49,153 nt of DNA from Methylococcaceae bacterium. GTDB lineage: Bacteria > Pseudomonadota > Gammaproteobacteria > Methylococcales > Methylomonadaceae. A program made the position numbers and the translations under genes. Shown in pieces: positions 9,373 to 45,642 of the stretch. The notes below the pieces were generated by a model. The model saw nothing but the letters and a program-made list of their open reading frames with translations, ran no database searches and was not told where the DNA came from. The stretch covers positions 1 through 49,153 of the forward strand of contig CANNKG010000014.1 in the NCBI GenBank assembly GCA_947505105.1. Reading direction: 5' to 3'. The first letter of the stretch is position 1. The number at the start of each line of letters is the position of its first letter.

Positions 9373-10222
9373 TATCGAATCTTATTGAGTTTCGGCGAAT
9401 CCCTCATTGGAAACGGAAACATCGCCGTGATCATTAACCCGGTGGTATAGTCGTTATATTATCTACTTTAGTCACTTGTCTAAATATGTATCTGTATGAA
9501 AAAACTTGTTTTTCGCCAGCCTTCAGCGTACCCACGTCAAATGCTCAGTTTATAGAATCATCAGCATAATTTAATGCCTGACCACAGGTTGGGGATAAAA
9601 TAACAGCGGGATTCGTTGTCCAGACCGAGCTAATACGAGTATCGTGTTTAACTGGATCAATAGAATAAAGAGCGACTCCTAGCTTACTGTTTCGGCCTTC
9701 AGCCCAGACGATATTTTGCGGACTCACTGTAATAGGTACCACGCCGATTGGGAAGGTATAACCTTTTCTGTTTAAAGTGGAAAAAGTTGTAGGCATATCT
9801 TGATCCGGATCCAATCCACGAGCAAAAGGTAGGTACAGAATATCGATAATTCATCGGCATTTCCGTGAGATAAATCACACACACAAAATTGAATATTCAC
9901 TTTATGGGTTGTGTCGCACAATTTGGTTCTTACTTAGGTCGCGTAAGCAACAATCGGCAGGAAAAAAAGTTTGCTTGCTGACGAAAATTTACCTTTATAC
10001 ACAGTTCTAAGTCTCGTTTATAAAGAAAACTCTCCGCTTTACCCTGCATAACTCAATTTTTATTTTATTCTTTATATCAATCTTTTAAGCATCAACAAGC
10101 TTAATATGCGGTCACTTTTTCCAACCCATAGCCGCTAACCCATCAATCTGGCATCAAAATTGTTAGCTTTAGACAAGCCCTAACATTACAACCATAGCGA
10201 TACTGACCGGGAATCCCAAACA
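9373..10222. other. Gene-poor gap before the ApaH-like gene
   Basis: Apart from the possible remnant at 9545-9850, I see nothing definite. The last 200 bases are AT-rich and should contain the promoter of the ApaH-like gene, but no strong -35/-10 pair stands out. Confidence 0.4.
9545..9850 (-). pseudogene. Possible remnant of an unknown protein gene
   Basis: An open frame of about 100 codons, bounded upstream by TGA, reads LYLPFARGLDPDQDMPTT and later TFPIGVVPITVSPQNIVWAE. It has protein-like composition but no Shine-Dalgarno and no good start (only a TTG inside). A second frame overlaps its upstream end (MNYRYSVPTFCSWIGSGS), as would be expected after a frameshift. I do not recognise the family. 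It could also be non-coding. Confidence 0.25.
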
Positions 10223-11032
10223 ATGACCACTTACGCCATCGGCAGTGTCAAAGGCTGTTATCAAACCCTTGTACACTTACTGGAAAAAATAGCCTTCGAT
10301 TCAGAAACCGACTGCCTATGGTTTGCCGGTAATTTAGTGAATGAAGGGCCTGATTCACTGGCGGTATTAAGATTGGTCAAAGGACTGGGAAAACAGGCAG
10401 TTATGGTGCTGGGTAATCAGGAATTGCATTTATTGCAGTTAGCCGATGGGCATATTCAGCCGGAAGTCGGTGATGCTTTGAATGAGTTATTGAATGCCCC
10501 GGATTGTGATGAGCTTCTAAAATGGCTACGCAGCAGGCCACTGCTTCATCACGATGCCACACTCAACTTTACTCTGGTGCATGCGGGTATTCCTGCTGAA
10601 TGGAGCTTTAGCCAAGCATTAACTTTTGCCTACGAAGTCGAGTCGGTCATCTCGCAGGGTAATGCTAAGTTATTGCTTGAAAATCTGACGCCAGACCAAT
10701 CACGTTGGCATGCCAAACTGCGCGGCTGGAAACGTCTGCGTTTCATCACCAATGCTTTTACCCTGATGAAATATTGCACTCCGCAAGGCAAGCTGGATTT
10801 CTATACCAGCGGTTCAATTACTTCACAATCCGCAGATTTAGTGCCGTGGTATCGGTTGTCAGAGCGCTTGACCACCCAGCTGAATATTATTTTTGCTGAC
10901 GATGCCGGTTTTCAGGACGAAGCGTTTCCGGGGATTTTTCCTTTACCGGCGCAAATACACTTGTCTGCCTTAACATTAGCGGCACCCCCTGAACTGATCC
11001 ATGTTGAACGGGTGGGACAAATTCCCTTATGA
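10223..11032 (+). CDS. ApaH-like protein lacking catalytic residues (predicted pseudoenzyme)
   Basis: 269 residues, aligning by eye along the whole length of ApaH (diadenosine tetraphosphatase). Shared landmarks are the start TYAIG, GPDSLAVLRLVK, DELLKWLRSRPLL, VHAGIPAEW, LRFITNAFT and the PWY segment. The metal and phosphate sites are almost all changed: the GDVHG motif reads GSVKG (D8S, H10K), GDLVxRG reads GNLVNEG (D37N, R41E), GNHD reads GNQE, and FGHW reads FADD. H120 in VHAG is retained. Hydrolysis of Ap4A by this protein is therefore unlikely; a binding or structural role is inference. It overlaps the next gene by ATGA, so the two are probably translated together. The reading frame is intact, which argues against simple decay. 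Confidence 0.85.
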   Translation: MTTYAIGSVKGCYQTLVHLLEKIAFDSETDCLWFAGNLVNEGPDSLAVLRLVKGLGKQAVMVLGNQELHLLQLADGHIQPEVGDALNELLNAPDCDELLKWLRSRPLLHHDATLNFTLVHAGIPAEWSFSQALTFAYEVESVISQGNAKLLLENLTPDQSRWHAKLRGWKRLRFITNAFTLMKYCTPQGKLDFYTSGSITSQSADLVPWYRLSERLTTQLNIIFADDAGFQDEAFPGIFPLPAQIHLSALTLAAPPELIHVERVGQIPL

Positions 11033-11517
11033 TATTTTTAAATAGTACAGCCAATATGAGCATCGAACAGGACAACACGGACTTCATTGCCGAACTTAAG
11101 CAGACCATTGTCGAACGAAAGCCCGAATTAAAAAAACACTATGAACGTTTGCTTGCGCAAGACCTTTCGCAGCAGCAATGGGATGGTTGCTTTCAACGCA
11201 ATATATTAATTGCATTGGAACAGTTTTACGCCGAAGCTCTGGCGCAGGTTAAAAGCCTACCCTTCGATACCAGTACCAGTCCCGTCAATCGAGGCTTATC
11301 GGCATTGACTCCACAAGTATTACAGGTTTTCGAAGGTTTTGTGGATGAGTTTTTACTGTTTGTGGTCGATAAGCATCGTACCTCCTGCGCACTCTCCAAT
11401 TTTCCGGATGAACATAAGCCGGATAAAACTTATGTAAATGAGGTAAGACATGCCATTGCTGAACTTTGGCAAAACTTCGCTATTGATGTTAATGCCCATT
11501 TTTTGGGTTCCTCTTAA
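11029..11517 (+). CDS. Uncharacterised helical protein coupled to the ApaH-like gene
   Basis: 162 residues, no family recognised. The sequence is mostly predicted helix, acidic to neutral, without signal peptide or membrane segment, so probably cytoplasmic. Features include an ELKKHYERLL helix near residue 35, QVFEGFVDEFLLFVVDKHR in the middle and RHAIAELWQNFAIDVNAHF near the end. The start overlaps the stop of the ApaH-like gene (ATGA at 11029); an internal ATG at 11056 (MSIEQDN) is the alternative. The overlap suggests a joint function with the ApaH-fold protein. Confidence 0.75.
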   Translation: MIFLNSTANMSIEQDNTDFIAELKQTIVERKPELKKHYERLLAQDLSQQQWDGCFQRNILIALEQFYAEALAQVKSLPFDTSTSPVNRGLSALTPQVLQVFEGFVDEFLLFVVDKHRTSCALSNFPDEHKPDKTYVNEVRHAIAELWQNFAIDVNAHFLGSS

Positions 11518-11536: not shown

Positions 11537-12160
11537 ATGATGAAATTTTATTTTACCCCCGGCTCCTGTTCGACAGGCATCCATATTTTATTGGAAGAAC
11601 TCGATCTGGTCTTTGAAGCACATCTCGTCAACCTGTTAAGCGGCACGCAACAGACACCTGAGTATTTAGCCATAAATCCAAAGGCAACTATTCCGACCCT
11701 GGTCCGTGATGACGGAACGGCGTTAACGGAATTTCAAGCTATCGCCTATTGGCTGGCGCGCAGTTATCCGAAAGCCAAATTGCTACCCGGCGACCCGGAC
11801 GGTGACGCTAAGGTCATTGAATGGATGGATTATGTGGTCGGCACGATTCATGGACAAGGCTTTACCCGAATTTTTACGACCGAAAAATTTACCCCCAACC
11901 CCGCTGATTACGAGGCGGTGAAGGCCCAAGGCATGGAAATTGTGACTCGAAGCTTTGCCATTGTTAACGCTAAGTTATCTTCATCAGGCTATGTGATGGG
12001 AAATTTCTGCATTGCCGATGCGGCGTTATTTTATGTCGAGTTTTGGGCCGACAAAATTGGGCTAACCTTGCCAGATAATTGTTTAAAGCATTATCAGTTG
12101 ATGCTGACACGGCCAGTGGTAAAGCGCGTTTTAATTGAAGAAGGATATCGGGTGGGTTAA
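11537..12160 (+). CDS. Glutathione S-transferase, beta class
   Basis: 207 residues. The N-terminal thioredoxin-like domain begins MMKFYFTPGSCS with Cys11 at the position of the beta-class catalytic cysteine, followed by the cis-Pro region ATIPTLVRDDG and LTEFQAIAYWLA. The C-terminal helical domain holds GNFCIADAALFYV, the family's structural motif. It conjugates or binds glutathione, in detoxification or redox repair. It follows the unknown gene by 19 bases on the same strand and may belong to the same transcript. Confidence 0.88.
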   Translation: MMKFYFTPGSCSTGIHILLEELDLVFEAHLVNLLSGTQQTPEYLAINPKATIPTLVRDDGTALTEFQAIAYWLARSYPKAKLLPGDPDGDAKVIEWMDYVVGTIHGQGFTRIFTTEKFTPNPADYEAVKAQGMEIVTRSFAIVNAKLSSSGYVMGNFCIADAALFYVEFWADKIGLTLPDNCLKHYQLMLTRPVVKRVLIEEGYRVG

Positions 12161-12210: not shown

Positions 12211-12609
12211 ATGCCTTTGATTGAACCAAGCAAAAATTTGACAGTTGGCTATGATCTGATTGATCGTGATCATGATGAATTTATTACGCTATTAAACCAG
12301 CTGGATACTGCCAGTAATGCCGATTTTCCGGCCTTGTTTCAGCAATTGCAGGTGCATACTGAACAACATTTTGAACGGGAAAACCAGTTGATGCAGCAAT
12401 TTTCCTATCCGGGCGAACTTGAGCATAAAAGCGAGCATCAGCGAGTACTCGCCGAATTCAAACAATTTAGGACACGGGTTGATAAAGGCATGATTACCTT
12501 TGGTCGGTCATTTGTCCGAGAGCGCCTGCCGCAATGGTTTGGATTGCATGTAACGAATATGGACATTGCCCTAGTCATGTACCTTAACGCAAACTTCCCA
12601 GCGAAATGA
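12211..12609 (+). CDS. Bacteriohaemerythrin
   Basis: 132 residues, single domain. All seven di-iron ligands of haemerythrin can be placed: H21, H53, E57, H72, H76, H113 and D118. The family binds O2 reversibly; in methanotrophs it has been proposed to carry oxygen to methane monooxygenase, and elsewhere it acts in oxygen sensing. Start ATG follows AGGAGG with seven bases between, a strong ribosome binding site, which suggests high expression. It lies 50 bases after the GST gene and 190 before a c-di-GMP protein. Confidence 0.92.
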   Translation: MPLIEPSKNLTVGYDLIDRDHDEFITLLNQLDTASNADFPALFQQLQVHTEQHFERENQLMQQFSYPGELEHKSEHQRVLAEFKQFRTRVDKGMITFGRSFVRERLPQWFGLHVTNMDIALVMYLNANFPAK

Positions 12610-28322: not shown

Positions 28323-29054
28323 TTATTCCTTACCTTTGCGTCCGCTCACCACCGCAACGAACTCCTCATGTGAGATATGCCGCACATCTTCACCCAAAAT
28401 CATATAAGTCACATATTCACACACATTGCAGGACATATCAGCAACACGTTCCAGCGCCTTTGAAACGGTCAGCACATCCAGAGAGCGCGTAATATTGCGT
28501 GGATCTTCAAACATTTGAGTAATCAACTGACGCACTATCGCCGAATACTCACGGTTGACAACTTTTTCCTGCTCGGTAATCGCCAGAATGCCATCCAGCG
28601 ACATTCTCGCAAAAGCATCGAGCGAATCATGCAACATCAAAATGACCAGTTCAGAAAGATGTTGAACTTCGTAATAATCATCACGTTTACCGGTATCGTT
28701 GTTGAATAACTGGACCGTCATGTGCGCAACGCGCGTCGCTTTATCGCCGATCCGTTCAAGTTCGGGAATCATTTTGATACAGGAAATCAATAAACGTAAA
28801 TCAAAGGCAGCCGGCTGCCGAAGTGCCAGAATTTGCATACATTCCTTGTCGATGATCAACTCAAGCTCATTAATCTGCTCATCATTCTGAATAATCTGTT
28901 CGGCCAAATCGATATCACCCAATTTGAAAGCCTTCATGGCCATTTCAAGTTGTTGTTCGACTAGGCCTCCCATAGTTAATACTTTATGACGAATATCTTC
29001 AAGCTCTTCATTAAATTGCTTGGAAATGTGCTGACCAATATGTTTTTTATCCAT
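28323..29054 (-). CDS. phoU: Phosphate transport regulator PhoU
   Basis: 243 residues, two PhoU three-helix repeats (about 15-110 and 120-215). Metal-binding helix motifs are visible as ELERIGDKATRVA and ALERVADMSCNVCEYV. PhoU links the Pst transporter to the PhoR/PhoB system and represses the Pho regulon in high phosphate. ATG with AGGA nine bases upstream. It lies 67 bases after pstB and ends the operon; phoR and phoB are not in the window. Confidence 0.96.
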   Translation of the reverse strand: MDKKHIGQHISKQFNEELEDIRHKVLTMGGLVEQQLEMAMKAFKLGDIDLAEQIIQNDEQINELELIIDKECMQILALRQPAAFDLRLLISCIKMIPELERIGDKATRVAHMTVQLFNNDTGKRDDYYEVQHLSELVILMLHDSLDAFARMSLDGILAITEQEKVVNREYSAIVRQLITQMFEDPRNITRSLDVLTVSKALERVADMSCNVCEYVTYMILGEDVRHISHEEFVAVVSGRKGKE

Positions 29055-29121
29055 GGGTATTCCTACGCTGTCTCAAAATAAAAATGTCATCGATTGATTT
29101 GATTGCCAAACTAAATCGAAA

Positions 29122-29952
29122 TTAACCATAGCGTCCGGTGATGTAGTCTTCAGTTTGCTGCTTAACCGGATTAGTAAATAATTCGGTCGTACGACCAAAT
29201 TCGATCAGTTCACCCATATACATAAATGCCGTGTAATCAGAAACGCGGGCGGCCTGCTGCATATTATGGGTCACAATCACAATCGTATACTTTTCTTTGA
29301 GTTCATTGATCAGCTCTTCAATTTTGAGCGTTGAAATCGGATCCAAAGCCGAAGCCGGTTCGTCCAGTAATAATACCTCAGGCTCTATCGCAATGGCCCG
29401 CGCAATCACCAGACGCTGCTGTTGACCACCCGATAGGCCAAAGGCATTATCGTTCAACCGGTCCTTAACCTCGCCCCACAGAGCGGCGCCTTGCAGCGAT
29501 TGCTCGACTGCTTCATCAAGGGTGTGTCTATCGTTGATTCCCTGAATACGCAAGCCGTAAGCAACATTTTCGTAAATAGATTTTGGAAACGGATTGGGTT
29601 TTTGGAACACCATCCCAACTCGCCGCCTCAAAGCAGCCACATTAACCGATTTAGCATAGATATCTTGATCATCTAAATTGATCTTACCTTCGATACGTAC
29701 CCCATCAATCAAATCATTCATACGATTGATACAACGCAACAAAGTCGATTTGCCACAGCCGCTCGGGCCAATATAGGCCGTGACGCGCTGCTTGGGCATG
29801 ACCATGTTGATATTGAATAATGCCTGTTTTTGCCCATAAAACAAATTCAAATTTTCAACGTGTAAACAGGGATCTTCTTTACCCGGATTGTGCGAAATGG
29901 TTCGGATTGAACTGATATCAATCGCGTGTCTACGTTCTGCTTGATTTTCCAT
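29122..29952 (-). CDS. pstB: Phosphate ABC transporter ATPase PstB
   Basis: 276 residues. Walker A is GPSGCGKST, the Q-loop is [20 protein letters not shown], the signature is LSGGQQQR and Walker B is [12 protein letters not shown]. The [16 protein letters not shown] wording is specific to PstB. It powers phosphate import through PstA-PstC. The first 30 residues are an extra, less conserved N-terminal stretch. It starts four bases after pstA. Confidence 0.97.
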
Positions 29953-29956
29953 TCGA

Positions 29957-31618
29957 TTAACCTTCTAAAGCACGATATTTTTCGCGCAAATGATTTCTGA
30001 TCGTGACTGCGGCTAAATTGAGCCCGACAATGACAATCACTAATAACAATGAAGTCGCATAAACAAGCGGTCTTGCGGCTTCAACATTTGGACTCTGGAA
30101 ACCCACATCGTAGATATGAAAGCCCAAGTGCATAAATTTTCGATCCAGATGTAAAAAGGGGAAATTACCATCAAGAGGCAATGCGGGTGCTAATTTTACC
30201 ACACCCACCAGCATTAACGGTGCGACCTCGCCAGCCGCTCGCGCCACCGCCAGAATCAATCCGGTCATCATCGCAGGACTTGCCATCGGTAAAACAGTGA
30301 GCCATAAAGTCTCAAACTTGGTAGCGCCTAAAGCCAAGCTTCCTTCTCGAATCGATTTAGGGATTCGGGATAAACCTTCTTCGGTTGCGACAATCACGAC
30401 CGGCAAAGTTAACAGCGCCAGGGTAATCGATGCCCACATCAAACCCGGTGTACCAAACACGGGTGATGGCGCAGATTCGGGATAAAATAATTGATCAATA
30501 TTTCCTCCCAGAATGTACACAAAAAAACCCAAGCCAAACACCCCATAAACAATGGAGGGAACGCCGGCCAGATTGTTGACTGCAATTCTGATCAAACGTG
30601 TCGTAAACCCCTGTTTCGCATATTCGCGTAGATAAACCGCGGCAACAACACCGAACGGCGTCACCATAATCGCCATCAGTATCACCATTAATACTGTTCC
30701 GTAGATCGCCGGAAAAATTCCGCCCTCAGTATTGGCTTCGCGAGGATCATCACTCAAAAACTCACCCAGTTTGGCAAAGTAATGACCAATTTTGGTAAAC
30801 ACGCTCATCGCGTTCGGCTGAAATGCATTAACCACTTTGCCGACCGGAATAGCAACTTCATGACCATCGCCGGTTTTAAAGACCAAACTTTGCTCATTGC
30901 CCTTCGCGTATAACTGTTTCAAACGACTTTGATAGGATTGATACTCCGTTTGCAAAGTCGATTTTTCAGCCGCTATCTCCTTTTTGGCTTCATCAGTCCA
31001 TTGATTTTTCAACTCCAGGCTACGCTGTTTTAAACGCAAACGTTCCAGTGCATAATTGATTGCGCCGATTTCCTTCTTTTCGAGCTGCTTAATTTCTTTG
31101 AACACTTGAGCTGTGTCGGCAATACTTTTTTGTGCCGCCTCCCAGACATTCGGACCATTCGCAACGATTTGTCCTGACGCCTTAAGCGCCACTAAAAAAC
31201 CGTAGAAGTTACCATATTCACGCCGCTCAACCACCACCAAGGCTTCAGGATATTCCTCCTTCTGGATATTTTTGGCCAGTAACCAGCGAAAATCCATTGC
31301 ATTGAGTTCACGATTGCCGATTTTAACCAGCTTTTGTTCAACTTCTAAATCATCACCGATATCTGTCGCAGCATATCCCGCATCTTTAGCGCGCTGGGCC
31401 GAGACCTCATTGCTATCGACAAATTCCCCCGTAATATCCTGCATTTGGCCATCTTTATCTCGATACTGCAGGTGAGCGACATTCGAAGGCCAGTAATGCC
31501 CAAGACCTCGCACCGCAATCAAGCCTAAAATGCCGACGACCAAAATCAGCGACATACTGACTGCCGAGGCATTGAGCCATATCCACGGCGAACCACTCTT
31601 AAACCATTGTTTAATCAT
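29957..31618 (-). CDS. pstA: Phosphate ABC transporter permease PstA, large form
   Basis: 553 residues, nearly twice the E. coli protein. One membrane helix (about 15-40) is followed by a periplasmic insertion to about residue 290 with a Lys/Glu/Gln-rich coiled-coil ([21 protein letters not shown]). The C-terminal part is the normal permease (about 295-550) with the EAA-type loop [18 protein letters not shown]. Large PstA proteins of this kind occur in several gammaproteobacteria. Its start overlaps the pstC stop by ATGA. Confidence 0.93.
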
Positions 31619-33888
31619 AATGAACTGTATTTTTCACGTAAACGCTGCCGAATCACTTCAGCGAGAGTATTAAAAATAAAGGTAAACATAAATAGCACCA
31701 ATGCCGCCAAAAACAGGACCCGGTAGTGAGTGCTGTTAACCTCCGATTCGGGCATCTCGACCGCAACATTCGCCGCCAGTGTGCGCATACCTTCAAAGAC
31801 GCTCATATCCATGACCGGGGTATTACCGGTCGCCATTAGCACAATCATGGTTTCACCAATCGCCCTGCCCAAACCGATCATCACGGCAGAAAAAATGCCC
31901 GGACTGGCGGTTAACAATACGACACGGGTCATTGTTTGCCAGGGCGTTGCCCCTAGCGCCAAGGAGCCGACCGTCAGGTGCTTAGGCACACTAAAGATGG
32001 CATCTTCGGCAATGGTAAAGATGGTCGGAATCACCGCAAAACCCATCGCAATACCTACCACGAGAGAATTTCGTTGATCATAGCTAATACCATATTCGTT
32101 ATTAAGCCATGCCTTTAAATCACCATTAAAAAACAGACGCTCCAAGCCTGGACTCAAGGCAAAAGTCAACCATACGATAGTGATGATCACCGGAATTAAA
32201 ATCAACGCCTCCATACCGTCAGGCACATTGACACGGACACTTTTAGGTAAATACTGCCACGCCAAGGCAGTCGCCATTACGCTTAGCGGTAATACTAATA
32301 AGGTCAGGAAGATACCTAATAGATTTTCTTCCAAAAAAGGCGCCAACCAAAGTCCCGCGAGGAATCCTAAAATAACGGTTGGCAGCGCTCCCATTAATTC
32401 AATGGTCGGTTTCACATAATTACGCATTCCCGGCGCCATAAAGTAAGCGGCATACATGGCGCCCATCAACGACATCGGAATTGCAAATAACATTGCGTAG
32501 AATGCCGCTTTCAAGGTTCCGAAAACCAGAGGCGTCAAACTATATTTCGGCTCAAAATCGCTGCTGGAAGAAGAAGATTGCCAAATAAAATCGGGCTTGG
32601 GATAACTTTCATACCAGACCTTGCTCCACATTGATTTGAATGAAACTTCTGGGTGTTCATTATCGACTTTCCAGAAATGTAATTGACCATCAGCCGATTG
32701 AATAAGAAAAGCATTAGCACGGGGCGCCACTGTAAATGCTACCGGTTGATGCACTACATGAGGCAATTTGAGCAATTCACGCTCTGCCGTGGTGTTATAG
32801 ATACCGACCCCACCTTGTTGATCAACGGTCAGAAAACCTTTTCTACGTTGTTCATGGACTAGAAAATTAATTTGTTGGTCAGAAACTTTAAAACTGCGTA
32901 ATTTTATAATGCTGCTTAAATTTTGCTCATTGCGAACTTTACTCCACTGTGAAACTACCCCGGAAGAATCGCCGACCAAAAGAGAAAGCCCGCCGTTCAA
33001 CAAGGCTAAGCTTGTAATCTTTTGGCCCTCCGGTATTAAGGTCAATTGCTGCTTTAACACCGGCGCTGATTTATCCCGAATATCATACTGAGTCAATTCA
33101 CCACGTTCACTCGCGAGATAGAGATTATTCAGTTCTTGATCGATCAAGACATGGGCAATATTTTCAACGGGTAACTCCAACTCTGCGACGGTTCGTTCCA
33201 ATTTTCCCTCGCCAAATAACGATTTTGTTCGGATCAAGCCTACTACAAAAAGTTTATGTGCAGTCGCCGCCACTAAGGTAGTTTCATCTTTCGCAATTCC
33301 TACAGCCACCTTGTCTAAAGCAACTCCTTGAGGATCAATAACTACAACCGGTTCTTCGAGAGGGTAAGTGATAGATGGCGTAATCGTGCGCACATTATCC
33401 GGATAGGTGATTTCGTAGTGTTGCTTGGCAACTAACATCCGTCCATCAGCTAGGCCATAGGCAATTGCACCTTCGCCACCACTCTGGGCAGAAAAACTGA
33501 CGATTTTAGTGTCGGCTGGAATTGCTAAAGTTTGATCAAGAATGGTCTGACCGGTTTTGACATTAAAAAATAACGCCCCTCCTCGATCAGTAAATCTAAC
33601 GCCTATTTCATTCTGCTCTTCCATCGCTAGCAACATCGTTTTACCCTTGTCACCACCTGGCACACTGTAATTGGCAATCGATTGAGCACTAGCCGGTATG
33701 AACAGCGGAATAACAACGTAAAGTAGATAGAAAAAAATAAGGACTATAGCGACAATAATGGCCCAGCCGCCCACAACGATAGCATAACGCGCCAAACTAT
33801 CCTTGATGAGGCGCCAACGTTGGTAATAGCTTGCAGAGGCTATCTCGAGTTCTGATTTTAATGATTTTGGTGTGATGATTTCGGTCAT
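31615..33888 (-). CDS. pstC: Phosphate ABC transporter permease PstC, large form
   Basis: 757 residues. After a first helix (about 35-65) comes a beta-rich periplasmic insertion of roughly 370 residues that reads like WD/propeller repeats (ISLALLNGGLSLLVGDSSGVV-like strands near 300). The permease domain (about 455-755) carries the EAA-type loop [19 protein letters not shown] and GRAIGETMIVLMATGN. It forms the membrane channel with PstA. Upstream lies a 214-base gap to pstS with a hairpin, which may set the ratio between the binding protein and the channel. Confidence 0.93.
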   Translation of the reverse strand: MTEIITPKSLKSELEIASASYYQRWRLIKDSLARYAIVVGGWAIIVAIVLIFFYLLYVVIPLFIPASAQSIANYSVPGGDKGKTMLLAMEEQNEIGVRFTDRGGALFFNVKTGQTILDQTLAIPADTKIVSFSAQSGGEGAIAYGLADGRMLVAKQHYEITYPDNVRTITPSITYPLEEPVVVIDPQGVALDKVAVGIAKDETTLVAATAHKLFVVGLIRTKSLFGEGKLERTVAELELPVENIAHVLIDQELNNLYLASERGELTQYDIRDKSAPVLKQQLTLIPEGQKITSLALLNGGLSLLVGDSSGVVSQWSKVRNEQNLSSIIKLRSFKVSDQQINFLVHEQRRKGFLTVDQQGGVGIYNTTAERELLKLPHVVHQPVAFTVAPRANAFLIQSADGQLHFWKVDNEHPEVSFKSMWSKVWYESYPKPDFIWQSSSSSSDFEPKYSLTPLVFGTLKAAFYAMLFAIPMSLMGAMYAAYFMAPGMRNYVKPTIELMGALPTVILGFLAGLWLAPFLEENLLGIFLTLLVLPLSVMATALAWQYLPKSVRVNVPDGMEALILIPVIITIVWLTFALSPGLERLFFNGDLKAWLNNEYGISYDQRNSLVVGIAMGFAVIPTIFTIAEDAIFSVPKHLTVGSLALGATPWQTMTRVVLLTASPGIFSAVMIGLGRAIGETMIVLMATGNTPVMDMSVFEGMRTLAANVAVEMPESEVNSTHYRVLFLAALVLFMFTFIFNTLAEVIRQRLREKYSSL

Positions 33889-33968
33889 AGACGCCGGCTT
33901 GATAAACTTGCTAATTATGATTTTAGAGTGATTTCAGGTAGAGACATCTTGGACAAATAGCATACTGA

Positions 33969-33989
33969 GGGATCACTTAGGATGATCCC
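33969..33989 (-). terminator. Hairpin between pstS and pstC
   Basis: GGGATCA and TGATCCC pair over a 7-base loop. No T-run follows, so it may protect the pstS message or cause partial termination, as is common after binding-protein genes. Confidence 0.4.
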
Positions 33990-34102
33990 CAGTTTACTAT
34001 CAGTCACAAACTCACCGATCGATGTTTGATAAGATCTCGGCAAGTTTGAAAAACATCCCTGTTGTGCATCCTTACACATTATGTAAGCAAATTAACCAAA
34101 GT

Positions 34103-35092
34103 CTATTTGATTAAAGCTTTTGATTTTTGAGCAATAGCCGCTGTCAATGGAATATAGCCGTCTTTAATAACGACTTCTTGACCTTCTTTAGACAACACCA
34201 TATTTAGGAACTCAGCTTCAAGTGGAGCTAATGGCTTATTTGGCGCTTTATTAACATAGATATACAAATAACGCGCCAAAGGATATTCGCCGGAGAGTGC
34301 ATTTTCTGCAGTAGCTTCTTTGAAGGGTTGACCTTCTTTTTTAGCCAAAGGCACTGCCTTGACACCAGAAGTTTTGTAACCCACGCCTGAATAGCCGATA
34401 CCATTTACTGATGAAGTGACCGACTGCACGACCGATGCAGAACCTGGCTGTTCATTCACGTTACTTTTGAAATCACCCTTACACAAGGCGTATTCTTTAA
34501 AATAACCATAGGTTCCCGATACCGAGTTACGGCCATAGAGCTGAATCGGTTTACTTTGCCAAGCGCCCGTCAAACCGGCCTGTCCCCAAGTTTCAATGTC
34601 GGCTTCATGACCACATTTGCGCGTCGATGACATAATCGCATCAACCTGAGCTACAGTTAAACCTGTAATTGGATTGTCTTTATGTACAAATACCGCGAGC
34701 GCGTCAATGGCAACAGGAATAGCGGTCGGTTTATAGCCGAACTTGCCTTCGAAGGCTTCCAATTCGTCATCTTTCATTTCACGACTCATCGGCCCCAAAT
34801 TAGAAGTACCTTCCGTTAACGCAGGCGGCGCGGTCGAAGAACCTGCCGCTTGAATTTGAACATTGACGTTCGGATAATTTTTATTAAACGTTTCCGCCCA
34901 AAGTGTCATCAAGTTAGCCAGCGTGTCTGAACCGACACTAGAAATATTTCCGGAAACGCCTTCAATTTTTTGATAGGCTGACAGTGCAGGATCAACTTTT
35001 AAAACTTTTTCAACAGCAAGCGCATAGTCTGATATTAATGCCAGCGTAACGAATCCGATACCTGCCTTCAATGATTTTGAACTCAAATTCAT
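34103..35092 (-). CDS. pstS: Phosphate-binding protein PstS
   Basis: 329 residues with a signal peptide ending near ISDYALA (about residue 26). Phosphate-binding motifs are [35 protein letters not shown] and [14 protein letters not shown]. It captures periplasmic phosphate for PstCAB. The ATG has only a weak GAG upstream. A Pho box lies about 70 bases upstream. Confidence 0.95.
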
Positions 35093-39296: not shown

Positions 39297-42200
39297 TCAA
39301 TCGGCATTATCAATAGCCTTATGATGGTGAGCGCCCAGCATCATATACACCGCCGGCACGACAAACAAGGTAAATAAAGTCCCAATCGCAATACCCGTTG
39401 CAATCACCAAGCCCATATTGAAGCGCGACACGGCACCTGCGCCGGTCGCCATAATTAAGGGCATAACCCCTAAGACCATCGCGGCGGTGGTCATCAAAAT
39501 CGGGCGTAATCGAATGCTCGCCGCATGCTCAATCGCTTCACGCTTGGTCTGTCCTTCCTTTTGCAGATTATTGGCGAATTCGACAATCAAAATTCCATGT
39601 TTGCTGATCAAACCCATCAAGGTCACTAAACCCACTTCGGTATAAATGTTGAGGGTCGCATTGCCGATGCCGAGCGCGATAAAAATTAACGCCCCGGCAA
39701 TCGACATCGGCACCGAAACCAGGATGATTAAGGGGTCGCGAAAGCTTTCGAACTGGGCCGCGAGCGCCAAGAAGATGATAATCAACGCAAACAAAAATGT
39801 ATAGACAAAGCCGCTCGATTCCTTAACCAATTGCCGTGACTGGCCGGCATATTCAATCGTATAACTCGACGGTAGCACGCGCTTGGCGATGTCCTGCAAG
39901 GTTACCAGCGCATTGCCAAGCGTCACCCCCGGAAACGGCACCCCTGAAACGGTCGCGGCGTTAAGTTGCTGAAAATGATTCAGCGACTGCGGAACGGTTT
40001 TGGTGCTGATCGTCGCAATTGACGCTAACGGCACAGTTTTGCCGCTGGCGGTGCGAATCGGATAATCGCGCAATTGTTCGACATTCAAGCGAAAGCCCTG
40101 TTGCACTTGCGGAATCACTTTGTAGGAGCGCCCGGCCAAACTGAAATAATTAACGTAACCGCCGCCTAGCATCGACGCCAGCGACGAGCCGATATCCTGC
40201 ATGTTCAAACCCAACAAGGAAGCCTTATCGCGATCAATTTCGACTTGCGATTGGGGTTGATCGTATTTTAAATCACTGTCGGTAAACATAAACATCCCGC
40301 TTTTTTGCGCTTCACGCATAAATAGCTGAGTAAGTTCATTCAATTGTTCAAACGATTCGGTCGAGCTGATTACGAATTGCACCGGCATACCGCTGCTGCC
40401 CGGTAATGGTGGCGGCTGAAATGCCGCGAGGCGCGCGCCCGCGATATTGTTCATTTCCTTTTGCACGATCGGCTGTAATTGATCGGCAGTTTGGGTGCGC
40501 TGATCCCAAGGCTTCAAAACCATCCCCGACACCGAACGCCCCGGCGTATCGAGCTGAAACACATGATCGGTTTCCGGGTGGGTCATAAATTGTTCGAAAA
40601 CCTGCCGCGAATACATTTGCCGTTGCTGCAGCGTCGAATCGGGCGCTGAGGTCGACATGGTAATAATAATGCCCTGATCTTCTTGCGGAGCGAGTTCATT
40701 ATTCGCGCTGCCGTACAGAAAATAAATGCTGCACAAAATAATCAGTGCGAACACCGCGGTCACCGGCAAATAATTTAGCGAGCCATGCAAGGTTCTACCG
40801 TACCATCCACTCAAACGATTAAAAGTTTTATCGATCCAGTCGACCACTCGTTCTTCGAGGCCGCTCCGATCACCCGTATGCTCCTTCAACAAGCGTGAAC
40901 ACATCATTGGCGAAAGCGTCAAGGCCACAATCGCTGAAACCGTCACCGCGCCAACCAAGGTGAAGGCAAATTCTGAAAATAAGGCGCCGGTCAAGCCACC
41001 CTGAAAACCGACTGGAATATACACTGCAATCAACACAATCGTCATCGCGATAATTGGCCCAGTCAATTCACGCGCCGCTTGCAGCGCCGCCGGAATCGGA
41101 TGCATGCCATCTTCGAGATGGCGATTGACGTTCTCGACGACGATAATCGCATCATCCACCACCAAGCCAATCGAGAGCACCAAGGCCAGTAAGGTCAGGA
41201 GATTGATCGAGAAACCGAACATCAACATCATCGTAAACGTGCCGATCAACGACAGCGGAATCGCAATCACCGGAATCAGCACCGAATGCGGCGAACCCAG
41301 AAAGGCAAACACCACCAAGGTCACAATGATCAAGGCTTCGAATAGGGTATGCACAACTTCATGAATCGAACTATCGACGAATTTAGTCGAATCGTAAACG
41401 ATTTTGGCATGCATCCCTTCCGGCAAATGCTTTTGAATGTCCGGGAACACTTCTTTGACTCGCCCAATCACTTCCAGCAAATTCGCACTCGGCGCGACCT
41501 GGAGACCAATATACACGGCCTTATCGCCATCGAAAGACACCGTCGACTCGTAATCATCCGAACCGAGCGTCACTTTCGCAACGTCTTTGAGTCGAATAAT
41601 CGCGCCTTCTTGCTGCTTGATAATCAGATTTTCAAATTCTTCAACCGAATGTAGATTGGTCGATGCGGTCAGGTTGACCTGCACCATTAAGCCCTTGGTG
41701 CGACCTAAACCGGCGATAAAGTTATTATTCGCCAGGGCCGCGCTGATATCGGCGGCGGTCAATGAGTACGCGCGCAATTTGTTCGGATCAAGCCAGGCGC
41801 GCAGCGAGAAATACTTACTACCGAGCAATTCCGCCAATTGAATACCGTCGACCGATTGCAACTTGGGCTGGACGCTTCGAATCAGATAATCGGTGATCTT
41901 GTTCGGCGGTAGTGCGTCGCTCGAAAAGCCGATATACATCGAATCGATGGTCTGTCCAATCGCAATATTCAACACCGGTCGTTGTGATTCGGGCGGCAGT
42001 TGATTCAAAATCGAATTGATTTTCGAATTGATCTCGGTCAGTGCTTTGTTCGGATCGAAATTAAGGCGTAAATTCGCGGTGATCGTACTCAGACCACTTT
42101 GACTGGCCGAGGTGATGTAATCGATCCCATTGGCCTGCGAAATAATGTTTTCGAGCGGCGTGGTGATAAAGCCGGCAATAATATCCGGGTCCGCGCCGTA

Positions 42201-42353
42201 ATAAGCGGTCGTGACCGTCACCACCGCGTTTTCGGTGCGCGGATATTGCAAGACTGGCAAACTGCTCAGCGAACGCAGTCCCAGTACCAGTAATAACATA
42301 CTAACCACAGTCGCCAAGACCGGACGACGAATAAAAATATCGGTAAAATTCAT
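39297..42353 (-). CDS. RND efflux pump inner-membrane permease (HAE-1 type)
   Basis: 1018 residues with the two-fold RND plan: 12 membrane helices and two large periplasmic loops. It opens MNFTDIFIRRPVLATVVSML. The proton-relay helix 4 reads LVLSIGLVVDDAIIVVENV with the paired Asp residues, and helix 10 carries the matching Lys region. A GFQGGLTGALFSEFAFTLVGA helix 5/6 region and a second-half LMGLISKHGILIVEFANN are also present. The wording is closest to the MexI-like branch, but substrates cannot be told. It follows the adaptor by six bases. By eye it looks more GC-rich than its neighbours. Confidence 0.94.
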   Translation of the reverse strand: MNFTDIFIRRPVLATVVSMLLLVLGLRSLSSLPVLQYPRTENAVVTVTTAYYGADPDIIAGFITTPLENIISQANGIDYITSASQSGLSTITANLRLNFDPNKALTEINSKINSILNQLPPESQRPVLNIAIGQTIDSMYIGFSSDALPPNKITDYLIRSVQPKLQSVDGIQLAELLGSKYFSLRAWLDPNKLRAYSLTAADISAALANNNFIAGLGRTKGLMVQVNLTASTNLHSVEEFENLIIKQQEGAIIRLKDVAKVTLGSDDYESTVSFDGDKAVYIGLQVAPSANLLEVIGRVKEVFPDIQKHLPEGMHAKIVYDSTKFVDSSIHEVVHTLFEALIIVTLVVFAFLGSPHSVLIPVIAIPLSLIGTFTMMLMFGFSINLLTLLALVLSIGLVVDDAIIVVENVNRHLEDGMHPIPAALQAARELTGPIIAMTIVLIAVYIPVGFQGGLTGALFSEFAFTLVGAVTVSAIVALTLSPMMCSRLLKEHTGDRSGLEERVVDWIDKTFNRLSGWYGRTLHGSLNYLPVTAVFALIILCSIYFLYGSANNELAPQEDQGIIITMSTSAPDSTLQQRQMYSRQVFEQFMTHPETDHVFQLDTPGRSVSGMVLKPWDQRTQTADQLQPIVQKEMNNIAGARLAAFQPPPLPGSSGMPVQFVISSTESFEQLNELTQLFMREAQKSGMFMFTDSDLKYDQPQSQVEIDRDKASLLGLNMQDIGSSLASMLGGGYVNYFSLAGRSYKVIPQVQQGFRLNVEQLRDYPIRTASGKTVPLASIATISTKTVPQSLNHFQQLNAATVSGVPFPGVTLGNALVTLQDIAKRVLPSSYTIEYAGQSRQLVKESSGFVYTFLFALIIIFLALAAQFESFRDPLIILVSVPMSIAGALIFIALGIGNATLNIYTEVGLVTLMGLISKHGILIVEFANNLQKEGQTKREAIEHAASIRLRPILMTTAAMVLGVMPLIMATGAGAVSRFNMGLVIATGIAIGTLFTLFVVPAVYMMLGAHHHKAIDNAD

Positions 42354-42359
42354 AACGGT

Positions 42360-43490
42360 CTACTGGTCCTCAGGTTTAGGCGCAGCTTCATTAGTGGGTT
42401 GTACGCTGTTATTGATCTTGACCGGCGAGCCGTTATGCAGCTTGAGCTGCCCAGAAGTCACCACGGCATCGCCCTCCTTAACCCCGTTCAACACCGCAAT
42501 TTGGTCGCCACGGGTTTCACCAGTCGTCACAAAAGTTTGCTTGGCAATGAATTTTTCTTTGCCATCGGCGGTGGCTTCGGCTTTATGCACCATATAGACA
42601 GTCGATCCGAACGGATTGAAAGTAATCGCCGAACGCGGCAGCGTAATATAACGTAGCGCAGCGCCGGTTGAGATACTGACTGTCGCATACATGCCGGGCA
42701 ACAAACGATGCTCCGGATTTTTCATGATGGCCCGGATCAGCACATTGCGCGTGTCAAGATCGACTTTCGGATTAATGACGCTGATCGTGCCGCTAAATTT
42801 TTGCTCCGGAAAGGTGTCGATATGAATACTGACCTGCTGCCCAAGTTTTACGACTGATAAACTTTGCTGCGGAACATAGAAGTCGACATAAATCGGATCG
42901 AGCGCTTGCAGGGTCGCAATTGCTGCGCCTTCTTTCAAATATTGACCGACATCGACTTGGCGAATTCCGATCACCCCCGCAAACGGCGCACGCACGGTTT
43001 TCTTGGCAATCAAGGCCTGCTGCTGGGCAACGTTTGCTTGCGCGACCAATAAATTAGCCTTTTCAACATCGACATTTTGCTGACTGATCGCATGCACGTT
43101 GAACTGCGCTTGGGCGCGTTGATAAGTCACTTTAGCCAATTCCACGGTGGCATTTAAAGAGGCGAGTTTGGCGTTGTCATCGTTTAAACGTAGCTGTAAT
43201 AACGGGGTATTCGGTACAATAGCATCGCCCTGCTTGAAATGAATGTCGCTGACAATACCCGCCACTTCCGAACTTAAATCAATTCCCTGCATGGCATGCA
43301 GACTTGCTACCGATTCGAGTGACGGCGACCATTCCAAATAACCGGCAGTAATCGTCGAGACCGTTTGAACCGGTTCGCCCTGGGCGGTCATCGCCTGTTT
43401 AATCATTTTGCCTTTAAAGTCGATAAACCAAAACACCCCGCCGAGGACTAGGCCTACGACGATGAGCATGATAAACATTCGCTTGATCAT
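42360..43490 (-). CDS. RND efflux periplasmic adaptor (membrane fusion protein)
   Basis: 376 residues with an N-terminal anchor helix (about 5-25). A biotinyl-lipoyl half appears as SSEVAGIVSDIHFKQGDAIVPNTPLLQL, then a short alpha-hairpin (about 110-150), the second lipoyl half VRAPFAGVIGIRQVDVGQYLKEG, and beta-barrel and membrane-proximal domains. It joins the inner pump to the outer-membrane channel. Its start overlaps the stop of the OMF gene by ATGA. Confidence 0.93.
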   Translation of the reverse strand: MIKRMFIMLIVVGLVLGGVFWFIDFKGKMIKQAMTAQGEPVQTVSTITAGYLEWSPSLESVASLHAMQGIDLSSEVAGIVSDIHFKQGDAIVPNTPLLQLRLNDDNAKLASLNATVELAKVTYQRAQAQFNVHAISQQNVDVEKANLLVAQANVAQQQALIAKKTVRAPFAGVIGIRQVDVGQYLKEGAAIATLQALDPIYVDFYVPQQSLSVVKLGQQVSIHIDTFPEQKFSGTISVINPKVDLDTRNVLIRAIMKNPEHRLLPGMYATVSISTGAALRYITLPRSAITFNPFGSTVYMVHKAEATADGKEKFIAKQTFVTTGETRGDQIAVLNGVKEGDAVVTSGQLKLHNGSPVKINNSVQPTNEAAPKPEDQ

Positions 43491-45055
43491 TTCAGTTTCC
43501 TAAATCTGGGGAATTCAAAGATTGTCGTGTATTTGCTGTCGAGCGTCGGTTCAAACGCGACCAATTTACTTAATGGACCGCGATTCCACCAGCCGCCACC
43601 AAGCGCCTGCATCAAAGCCGCACTATCCACATAACGCAAGGTTTTAGCTCTGATCTGCCCGATCCGGGTCTGCTGATAAGCACGTTCGGCCACCAATAAA
43701 TCCAAAATACTCGCAGCACCCACTTGCATCTGGCCGCGCGTCAATTCCAACGTTTCGGCGGCAGCGGCATTGGCGGCGTTCTGCGTTTTGAGCTCCGCAT
43801 AATCGTATTCGAGTGCGCTCAACACATCGGCCACATTTTGGAAGGCTTTGAGCAAAGTAGAACGGTATTCGGCAGCCATTTGTTCAAAGGTCGCAATGGC
43901 GGCTTTTTTCTGATGCAAAAATTGCGCGCCATGAAAGATCGGTTGCACTAAGGCACCATTTAACGCCCATACCGCCGACCCCGGCGAAAACAGGCTGCTA
44001 GCAGCGACTGCAATAGTACTGACGTTGGCGTTAATACTTAAATCGGGAAAAATATTGGTTGCCATTTCGCCAACTTGAGCGCTGGCCGCATGTAAAATGG
44101 CCTCCTGCGCCCGAATATCCGGACGTTGCTCAAGCAACTTACCCGGCACGCTCAAGGGGAGTTGTTCGGGTAAATGCAAATCATCAAGGGTAAATTCGGC
44201 GAGTAGCGCATTACTCCCCGGAATGTCGCCCACCAGAGCGCTTAATTCATGCCGAATTTGGGCCAGTTGTTTATGCAACGGCGGCAAAGTGGTACGAATC
44301 TGTTCCAATAGCGTTTGTTGGTTAAGTAAGGAGATTTTGGAAATGCTGCCAATATCCAATTGTTGCTGCATAATCGCCAACTCATCTTCATAAGCCTGGA
44401 TAATTTCCTCGGTCGCCTTGATCTGATCACGCAAAGAAGCTTCTTGAATTGCTGCGGTGACAATATTGCCCGCCAACGTCAAAAATGCGCCTTCGAGCTG
44501 GAATTTCTGATATTCGATCTCCGCATCCATACCTTCGAGTTCGCGCTGCAACTTGCCGAACACATCCAGCGTATAAGTCACACCGACCGAAGCGTTATAC
44601 AGCGTAAATACCGAGCCAGTAAAATTAGGATTGCCGAACTGCGCGCCTGAGACTTTCTGATGCCGGACCGAAAGAGTCGCATCCAGCGCCGGTAAAAGTT
44701 CTGAGGCTTTTGCCAGTCGATTTTCTTGCGCCGACACTAACACGGCCTGTGCAGATTTCAGCGAGGGATTACGCTTAAGTGCTTGTTCAATCAGAGCATT
44801 TAATGGTTTGGATTTAAACAGCTCCCACCATTGCCCAGGAATATCCTGTCCCAGCACCAGCTTTTGCCCTTGGTCGCTCGCAATTTGCGTTACTTGCTCC
44901 GCAGTCACCAATCGTTCAGGGGATTCAGTGACAGGACGCTTAAAATCCGGGCCTAAAGTACAGCCCGAAATCAGTGCCGCCAAAAGCCCACTCAAAATAA
45001 ATTTTCGGGACCTGCGCATTATTGATTGATTAATAGTAAAAGATAAGACACTCAT
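43487..45055 (-). CDS. RND efflux outer-membrane factor lipoprotein (OprM/NodT family)
   Basis: 522 residues. The lipobox LLAALISGC precedes TLGPDFKRP, a typical NodT/OprM opening. Two OEP repeats follow with PGQWWELFKSKPLNALIEQAL and EQRPDIRAQEAILHAASAQVGEM. The start at 45055 overlaps the tetR stop (ATGA) and has AGGTCAGG close upstream; an internal ATG at 45019 (MRRSRK) would give a shorter, more usual signal. It forms the trimeric exit duct of the pump. Confidence 0.92.
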   Translation of the reverse strand: MSVLSFTINQSIMRRSRKFILSGLLAALISGCTLGPDFKRPVTESPERLVTAEQVTQIASDQGQKLVLGQDIPGQWWELFKSKPLNALIEQALKRNPSLKSAQAVLVSAQENRLAKASELLPALDATLSVRHQKVSGAQFGNPNFTGSVFTLYNASVGVTYTLDVFGKLQRELEGMDAEIEYQKFQLEGAFLTLAGNIVTAAIQEASLRDQIKATEEIIQAYEDELAIMQQQLDIGSISKISLLNQQTLLEQIRTTLPPLHKQLAQIRHELSALVGDIPGSNALLAEFTLDDLHLPEQLPLSVPGKLLEQRPDIRAQEAILHAASAQVGEMATNIFPDLSINANVSTIAVAASSLFSPGSAVWALNGALVQPIFHGAQFLHQKKAAIATFEQMAAEYRSTLLKAFQNVADVLSALEYDYAELKTQNAANAAAAETLELTRGQMQVGAASILDLLVAERAYQQTRIGQIRAKTLRYVDSAALMQALGGGWWNRGPLSKLVAFEPTLDSKYTTIFEFPRFRKLK

Positions 45056-45642
45056 TGCCTGACCTGGGGAATATTTAAACCGTTTAACAATAAAGTAGTA
45101 ATGTGTTCTGCAATGACTTCAAGCTGTTCATGCTCTGGCTTCCAGCCAGGAAAATGTCGATGCAGCGGTTTGTTATCGAGATAATGTTTCACCAAACCGA
45201 TGATTGACGTTGCCACCAAATGCGCATCCAGTTCCGGTGCGAGTTCCCTAGCCAATTGCATCAATAAACTGAATTGCTTTTGAAACACCCCTTGCGCCAA
45301 CAACTGCATACGTTCAGCATCAGCTTCCATGATTTCTCGTTGCATCAAGCGATGAAAGTCCGGATCCAACGTAATAACATCAATCAACGAACGGACGAAT
45401 TTGCCGAGCTTTTCAACCGGTGTGCTATCAGATTCCCATACCTGACTAAAGATAAGCTCCTTGCCTGAAAAAGCATAACTCACCGCCTCAAGATACAGAG
45501 CATCTTTATCGGGAAAATGGTGATAAATCGAGGCGACACTCATATTGACAGCCGTTGCAAGCATGCGCATCGACAGACCTGAATAGCCTTTATCAGCAAA
45601 CAGCACAATCGCTTTGCTTAGAATTTTTTCTTTTGTGTTCAA
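45052..45642 (-). CDS. TetR-family regulator of the efflux operon
   Basis: 196 residues. The helix-turn-helix is near residues 25-47 (LSMRMLATAVNMSVASIYHHF), and a YFPDKDALY-type end (HHFPDKDALYLEAV) marks the family. The C-terminal ligand domain is not specific. The start is TTG at 45642 (no ATG fits), with a GAGA upstream. As first gene of the operon, overlapping the OMF gene, it probably represses its own pump through the palindrome just upstream. Confidence 0.9.
   Translation of the reverse strand: MNTKEKILSKAIVLFADKGYSGLSMRMLATAVNMSVASIYHHFPDKDALYLEAVSYAFSGKELIFSQVWESDSTPVEKLGKFVRSLIDVITLDPDFHRLMQREIMEADAERMQLLAQGVFQKQFSLLMQLARELAPELDAHLVATSIIGLVKHYLDNKPLHRHFPGWKPEHEQLEVIAEHITTLLLNGLNIPQVRQ

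Follow-up and report, generated by a model that had tools for sequence, protein, structure and literature searches.

Among described systems, the closest to the gene studied here is ApaH, represented by the NCBIfam models TIGR00668 and NF001204 and by the structures PDB 9ojd and 2dfj. From the PPP superfamily, pseudophosphatases are known in which the phosphatase fold is kept and metal-binding residues are replaced, and which are maintained under purifying selection. Further relevant for comparison are the nif accessory genes, among which we count nifX, the nif flavodoxin and the LRV-FeS4 protein. Aerobic methanotrophs fix nitrogen yet need oxygen for methane oxidation, and the accessory genes of methanotroph nitrogenase are therefore of interest. 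Searches of the open-licence literature returned no paper combining “ApaH” and “pseudoenzyme”, nothing relevant for apaH and methanotroph, only an endophyte genome paper for apaH and nif, and no paper for diadenosine tetraphosphatase and nitrogenase or for methanotroph, nitrogen fixation and tetraphosphatase; for the module genes treated below, no open-licence paper was found either. In the available excerpt of a review, ApaH enzymes are described as Mn- or Co-dependent with a conserved metal site (PMC10148737).

The window, i.e., the whole analysed stretch of 49,153 nucleotides, contains at 10223–11032 (+ strand) an open reading frame of 269 amino acids with an ATG start and no internal stop codon, which is called pseudo-ApaH here and appears to be a catalytically degenerate paralogue of ApaH. 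The encoded protein passed both ApaH equivalog models, NF001204 with 253.4 bits (cut-off 176) and TIGR00668 with 232.3 bits (cut-off 222.85), and the intact reading frame for an ApaH homologue given in the preliminary description is thereby borne out. It also scored 35.1 bits against Pfam PF00149 (Metallophos, gathering cut-off 21.5), which places it in the PPP/metallophosphoesterase superfamily. With ApaH it shares its length, 39–42% identity, the VHAG motif and the predicted fold: an AF2 model (pLDDT 88.5, pTM 0.87) was superposed on E. coli ApaH (PDB 9ojd) over 262 residues with a Z of 37.3 and 1.4 Å, which predicts an ApaH fold. The alignment with ApaH of E. coli/Shigella spans residues 1–241. 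A second, normal apaH, whose presence had been proposed as a check, exists elsewhere in the same genome (match G000:C9:43253–43927, full ORF in locus L002), and its motifs GDIQGC, GDLVNRGP, GNHD, HAG and GHW are all intact.

All substitutions listed in the preliminary description are present in comparison to E. coli/Shigella ApaH, namely D8S, H10K, D37N, R41E, GNHD to GNQE and GHW to ADD, and VHAG is indeed kept in the window protein, the E. coli chain reading MAHAG at this place. The motifs GDxxG, GDLVxRG, GNHD and GHW are disrupted in the window protein by replacement of D8, D37, R41, H66, D67 and the GHW histidine, which we take to be metal ligands and catalytic residues of the PPP/ApaH family. 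Two of the original points have to be restricted. The substitution of H10 is real but not diagnostic, since all 40 canonical ApaH proteins sampled have Q at this position, and its loss was rejected as a sign of inactivation. Further, the ApaH landmarks said to run from end to end cover most of the chain, but the clade of related proteins lacks the C-terminal GC(V/L)WGG block seen in canonical ApaH.

Residues were counted in 40 distinct clade members and in the 40 sampled canonical ApaH. The members are distinct proteins of at least 200 amino acids (29 family loci, ten further loci and the window; the short pieces L090–L093 were excluded) and should not be equated with the 40 carrier genomes mentioned below, as not every carrier copy is included. 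D8, D37, N65, H66 and the GHW histidine are invariant in the canonical proteins. In the clade, D37 is replaced by N and the GHW histidine by D (D226) in all 40 members, D8 by S (34) or N (6), and H66 by Q (33), R (4), A (2) or E (1), while position 67 is E in 38 members and D in two. R41 has become E in 20 members and seven other residues in the remainder, and ten residue types occur at N65. H120 of HAG is kept in 37 members and is N in three of Methylomonas type (L028, L029, L080). Of 87 positions invariant in canonical ApaH (≥97%), the clade keeps 52 in at least 90% of its members and 35 are not kept in this way; at 19 positions the clade has a fixed residue that is rare in canonical ApaH. 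The most conserved stretches are 119–143, with VHAG inside, and 159–178.

A divergent but working ApaH, with Ap4A hydrolysis retained, is very improbable in view of these counts. The NF001204 cut-off was passed by all 11 clade members tested (TIGR00668 by three of them) and H120 is largely kept, but the four catalytic motifs around D8, D37, H66 and the GHW histidine are altered in every member, the C-terminal GCVWGG block is missing, and PDB entry 9oly is, by its title, a D37A mutant of E. coli ApaH, a position at which the whole clade has N. Annotation by these models would name the clade members ApaH. Thus, a likely mis-annotation can be flagged, in which NF001204 takes all 11 tested members as symmetrical tetraphosphatases.

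Residual or novel chemistry is conceivable, given the retained H120 and the acidic residues E67 and D226 at former catalytic positions. A re-purposed active site may be considered, in which S8, N37, Q66, E67, H120 and D226 form a rebuilt pocket with different chemistry and possibly a different metal, and the near-fixation of these replacements in the counts given above is in its favor. However, the change of H120 to N in three members and the free variation of N65 and R41 argue against a shared metal site, and we regard this explanation as unlikely. Somewhat better placed, albeit still tentative, is a nucleotide sensor: the old pocket might bind Ap4A, ATP/ADP or another nucleotide uncut and thereby couple nitrogen fixation to the energy or stress status of the cell, which is a sub-case of the binding role favored below. 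The predicted intact ApaH fold, the strong conservation of 119–143 (VHAG) and 159–178, and the fixed polar residues N37, E67 and D226 refilling former catalytic positions would fit such a sensor, but the loss of R41 and the free variation at N65 speak against it, both residues lying, presumably, in phosphate/metal-binding motifs of PPP enzymes.

The distribution of pseudo-ApaH was assessed in 201 genomes, i.e., the genome of the window and 200 others of its family, which we take to be methanotrophs of the order Methylococcales (GTDB Methylomonadaceae). Some ApaH-type match with E ≤1e-20 was found in 195 of the 201 genomes, and pseudo-ApaH in 40, its copies being the window's own or 56–77% identical to it, compared with about 40–47% for canonical apaH. 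Named carriers are Methylovulum miyakonense HT12, Methylovulum psychrotolerans, Methylobacter luteus, M. marinus and M. tundripaludum SV96 as well as Methylomonas sp. LW13, M. koyamae, M. methanica and M. fluvii. Each carrier has at least two ApaH-type matches, and the motifs of the second copy were read as canonical in 13 of them. Two carriers are incomplete, with pseudo-ApaH split over two contigs in G116 and in two frames in G193; the two overlapping frames of the latter (G193:C344:4062–4848) reflect either a damaged gene or a fault in the assembly. Six ApaH pieces from five genomes with a weak best match (G073, G132, G169, G172 and G190) were rejected as signs of further carriers: those covering the motifs are canonical, and the count of 40 therefore stands. 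When a clade profile was applied to a class sample of 369 genomes, more than 300 bits were reached in the window's own genome only (next best 288 bits), and the 19 matches in other genomes that were inspected are canonical ApaH. Hence, the clade seems confined to the family, at that sampling.

In a maximum-likelihood tree of 80 proteins, the 40 distinct pseudo-ApaH proteins form one branch with a support of 100/100, whereas 21 canonical proteins of the family lie on a separate branch. A clade sharing the substitutions, as anticipated, therefore exists and is monophyletic; the opposite case, that no other genome has these changes, did not hold. An origin within the family's own canonical apaH was not supported by this tree; since its root is not fixed, the clade may derive either from an ancient duplication or from an early acquisition.

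The pairwise dN/dS of the clade has a median of 0.14 (94 pairs with dS 0.1–1.2). For 12 genomes with both genes (66 pairs), the median pN/pS was 0.251 for pseudo-ApaH and 0.211 for canonical apaH; dS was below 1.5 for both genes in just two pairs, with values of 0.141 and 0.119 for pseudo-ApaH versus 0.062 and 0.094 for canonical apaH. A decaying pseudogene duplicate would explain the loss of many catalytic residues and the two frames in G193, but it is hardly credible for a gene that has an open frame of 200 residues or more in each of 40 distinct members, a dN/dS of about 0.14, a conserved upstream element and a single clade across ten genera. On the grounds of open frames, dN/dS and single clade, a pseudogene or sequencing artefact was rejected for the clade. 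With the shared substitutions, a constraint near that of canonical apaH and a separate normal apaH, the proposal of a pseudoenzyme under selection is well supported as far as sequences can tell: by its sequence, pseudo-ApaH looks like a catalytically dead ApaH paralogue under strong constraint. Its pattern of a kept fold with replaced metal residues is the same as in the PPP pseudophosphatases, from which it differs by its link to nitrogen-fixation genes.

Unlike ApaH, pseudo-ApaH has its own upstream element and a nif-linked distribution. A sigma54-like −24/−12 element (TGGCATCAAAATTGTT) is located at 10149–10164 (+), 74 bp 5′ of the ATG. The clade form of this conserved element is TGGCAT[CT]A[AT]AATTGAT, and the window copy has GT at the −12 position where the clade has GA. 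Using the strict pattern TGGCAT[CTA]A[AT]AATTG[AT]T, the element was found in 26 of 40 upstream regions, with sharp conserved edges and unconserved flanks, and in 28 of 40 using the loose pattern TGGCAT-N5-TTG; upstream of canonical apaH, it was found in 0 of 40. The −24 half and the spacing equal those of the sigma54 promoter TGGCAY-N5-TTGC, and the −12 half is TTGAT, with GA for the consensus GC. In the 12 genomes examined for nifH, this gene has TGGCA[CT]-N5-TTGC at −60 to −65, with an exact TGT-N10-ACA upstream in 11. As the −12 box is TTGAT instead of the TTGC of nifH, the sigma factor assignment remains putative. We read the elements of pseudo-ApaH and of the downstream gene c2 as probable sigma54/enhancer promoters in which the −12 box is a variant, though recognition by some other factor is conceivable.

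An enhancer-like site (GGTCGCGTAAGCAACA) with one mismatch to TGT-N10-ACA lies at 9937–9952 (+), 212 bp 5′ of the −24/−12 element. It is weak in the window and clearer in relatives, often resembling GGTCAT-N4-ATGACA: at a distance of 155–225 bp upstream, 24 of 25 cases had a site with at most one mismatch to TGT-N10-ACA (eight exact, 16 with one mismatch), compared to 11/25 and 2/26 in two other distance intervals, the interval 155–225 having been chosen after a first look. Twelve of the 40 upstream regions are devoid of the −24/−12 element. In three of them the gene closely follows a 2OG oxygenase gene (L012, L017, L019) and in five the NifX-linked gene c18 (L014, L027, L030, L074, L076; L074 was judged from the upstream letters only and L030 via its duplicate, locus L078). 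In L077 the sequence ends 27 bp upstream of the gene; for L081, L084 and L089 there is no explanation.

When 16 carrier genomes were scanned with the exact pattern TGGCATNANAATTGAT, 14 of the 17 matches were at pseudo-ApaH; a reversed control pattern had no match. The three matches of TGGCATNANAATTGAT away from pseudo-ApaH are on G003:C12, G038:C33 and G041:C193, and G125 had no such match; the one at G041:C193:5743–5758 is a perfect copy of the element and the sole exact match in G041. With a looser pattern, six matches were found in the window's own genome, one of them at pseudo-ApaH and the other five read by their flanking bases only. A large regulon behind the element was thus not seen in this genome and 16 relatives. 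Separately, seven of 12 flavodoxin genes of the cluster (L034, L038, L040, L041, L043, L046, L048) have the same sigma54-like element, TGGTTTAAATATTGCT, 48–53 bp upstream.

In the same 201 genomes, nifH was called above the TIGR01287 cut-off and was present in 98. It occurs in 36 of the 40 carriers but in 62 of 161 non-carriers (Fisher p = 2e-9), and in 34 of 34 carriers with a completeness of at least 90%. The carriers without nifH over the cut-off are G004 (41-residue fragment only), G187, G196 and G197, with 76–80% completeness. Two results count against a role in nitrogen fixation: stratified by genus, the association with nifH is weak (CMH p = 0.04), and only 36 of the 98 nifH-positive genomes have pseudo-ApaH.

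More informative are the gene neighborhoods, which were compared for 39 of 42 distinct loci, excluding three shorter than 6 kb. At 22 of the 39 loci, at least one gene of a recurrent set lies within 5 kb of pseudo-ApaH, and 17 have none, some of them being ended by contig edges. The set comprises c2 (17 loci), a glutathione S-transferase (GST; 16), an Fe(II)/2OG oxygenase (15), a hemerythrin (14), a long-chain flavodoxin (13), a NifX-like gene coding for a FeMo-co-family protein resembling NifX and the C-terminus of NifB (7), c18 (7) and the LRV-FeS4 protein (2). c18, of about 120 amino acids and located after the NifX-like gene, matched nothing in Pfam or NCBIfam at E 0.001 in the one member searched (L042:6839–7204). 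Pseudo-ApaH directly follows the nifX-like and c18 genes in L039, L050, L076 and L078, and the 2OG oxygenase gene in L037, L042 and L044. In the window, members of the set are found 3′ of pseudo-ApaH, all on the + strand: c2 (11029–11517), a GST-like protein (11537–12160) and a hemerythrin-domain protein (12211–12609). Like nifX, nif flavodoxin and LRV-FeS4 genes, with which it shares neighborhoods, pseudo-ApaH is mostly found in nifH-positive genomes, but it is not homologous to these accessory genes and its −12 promoter box is unlike that of nifH. From the genome context, the setting of pseudo-ApaH is more likely nitrogen fixation than the general metabolism of Ap4A.

The co-inherited partner c2 is an uncharacterized, predicted helical protein with a conserved loop (DKHRTSCALSNFPDEHKP). 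Its ORF, from 11029, overlaps the stop codon of pseudo-ApaH by 4 bp; judging from a comparison with relatives, its start is likely at ATG 11056. Of the 40 carriers, 37 have c2, compared with 10 of the 161 other genomes (p = 1e-27), and c2 is the strongest co-inherited partner. This association holds within genera (CMH p = 7e-10), in nifH-positive genomes only (34 of 36 carriers versus nine of 62 others, p = 1e-15) and also in genomes with a large distance between pseudo-ApaH and c2, e.g., G061, G074, G134 and G135. Carriers without c2 are G146, G175 and G187, and of the ten non-carriers with c2, seven have it at 49–69% identity and three have distant forms at 37–44%. c2 is therefore likely to be a partner of pseudo-ApaH, as suggested by this pattern of co-occurrence.

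The window c2 had no match in Pfam or NCBIfam at E 0.001, and 26 members gave merely five scattered weak matches against Pfam at E ≤0.1. A structure model (pLDDT 91.5) retrieved generic helical bundles in a fold search (best Z 9.8), and the fold is thus uninformative on function. A distant c2 domain is fused C-terminally to FAD amine-oxidase-like proteins (L192:4161–5891, L193:6045–7661, L194:6093–7658). Just upstream of c2, L169 and L171 encode an oxidoreductase as a protein of its own, and its N-terminus is similar. In L195 and L196, a distant c2 lies beside GST, c18, flavodoxin, LRV or NifX-like genes in the absence of pseudo-ApaH.

Since pseudo-ApaH travels with nifH and with the set of NifX-like, flavodoxin, LRV-FeS, hemerythrin, GST, 2OG oxygenase and c2 genes, we propose that it is a non-catalytic binding or scaffold protein with an ApaH fold which acts in nitrogen fixation and is kept in one methanotroph family; we give this reading a probability of roughly two in three. 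Such a protein would have no Ap4A hydrolysis, and a sigma54-type, enhancer-driven promoter would transcribe it together with nif functions. Its mode of action would be binding, whether of a protein partner (most likely c2), of a nucleotide-like ligand in the former active-site pocket, or of the two together, and the outcome could be help with nitrogenase assembly, electron supply or oxygen protection. More speculatively, and rather doubtful at present, pseudo-ApaH and c2 may bind a nucleotide signal and gate, assemble or oxygen-protect nitrogenase in aerobic methanotrophs. What is new here is that pseudo-ApaH looks like a nitrogen-fixation accessory. If true, an Ap4A enzyme family would be tied to diazotrophy, and an enzyme would have turned into a helper within a housekeeping family that is widespread among bacteria; its job could be tested, and a set of co-inherited genes, including that of the orphan protein c2, is named here.

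The upstream regions of c2 were inspected at 33 loci. At 11 of these (5/13 and 6/20), an element of the type TGGCC-N6-TTGAA, similar in kind to that of pseudo-ApaH and with the same variant −12 box, is present together with an exact TGT-N10-ACA 82–128 bp upstream, and four more have the element without its TGT-N10-ACA partner. At 18 loci (7/13 and 11/20), no element was recognized, including loci where c2 closely follows another gene. Elsewhere in the window, judged from translations only, 28323–35092 likely represents a phosphate-uptake operon in the order PhoU, PstB, PstA, PstC, PstS, and 39297–45642 apparently encodes an RND efflux system (inner membrane pump, adaptor and outer membrane channel) with a TetR-type regulator.
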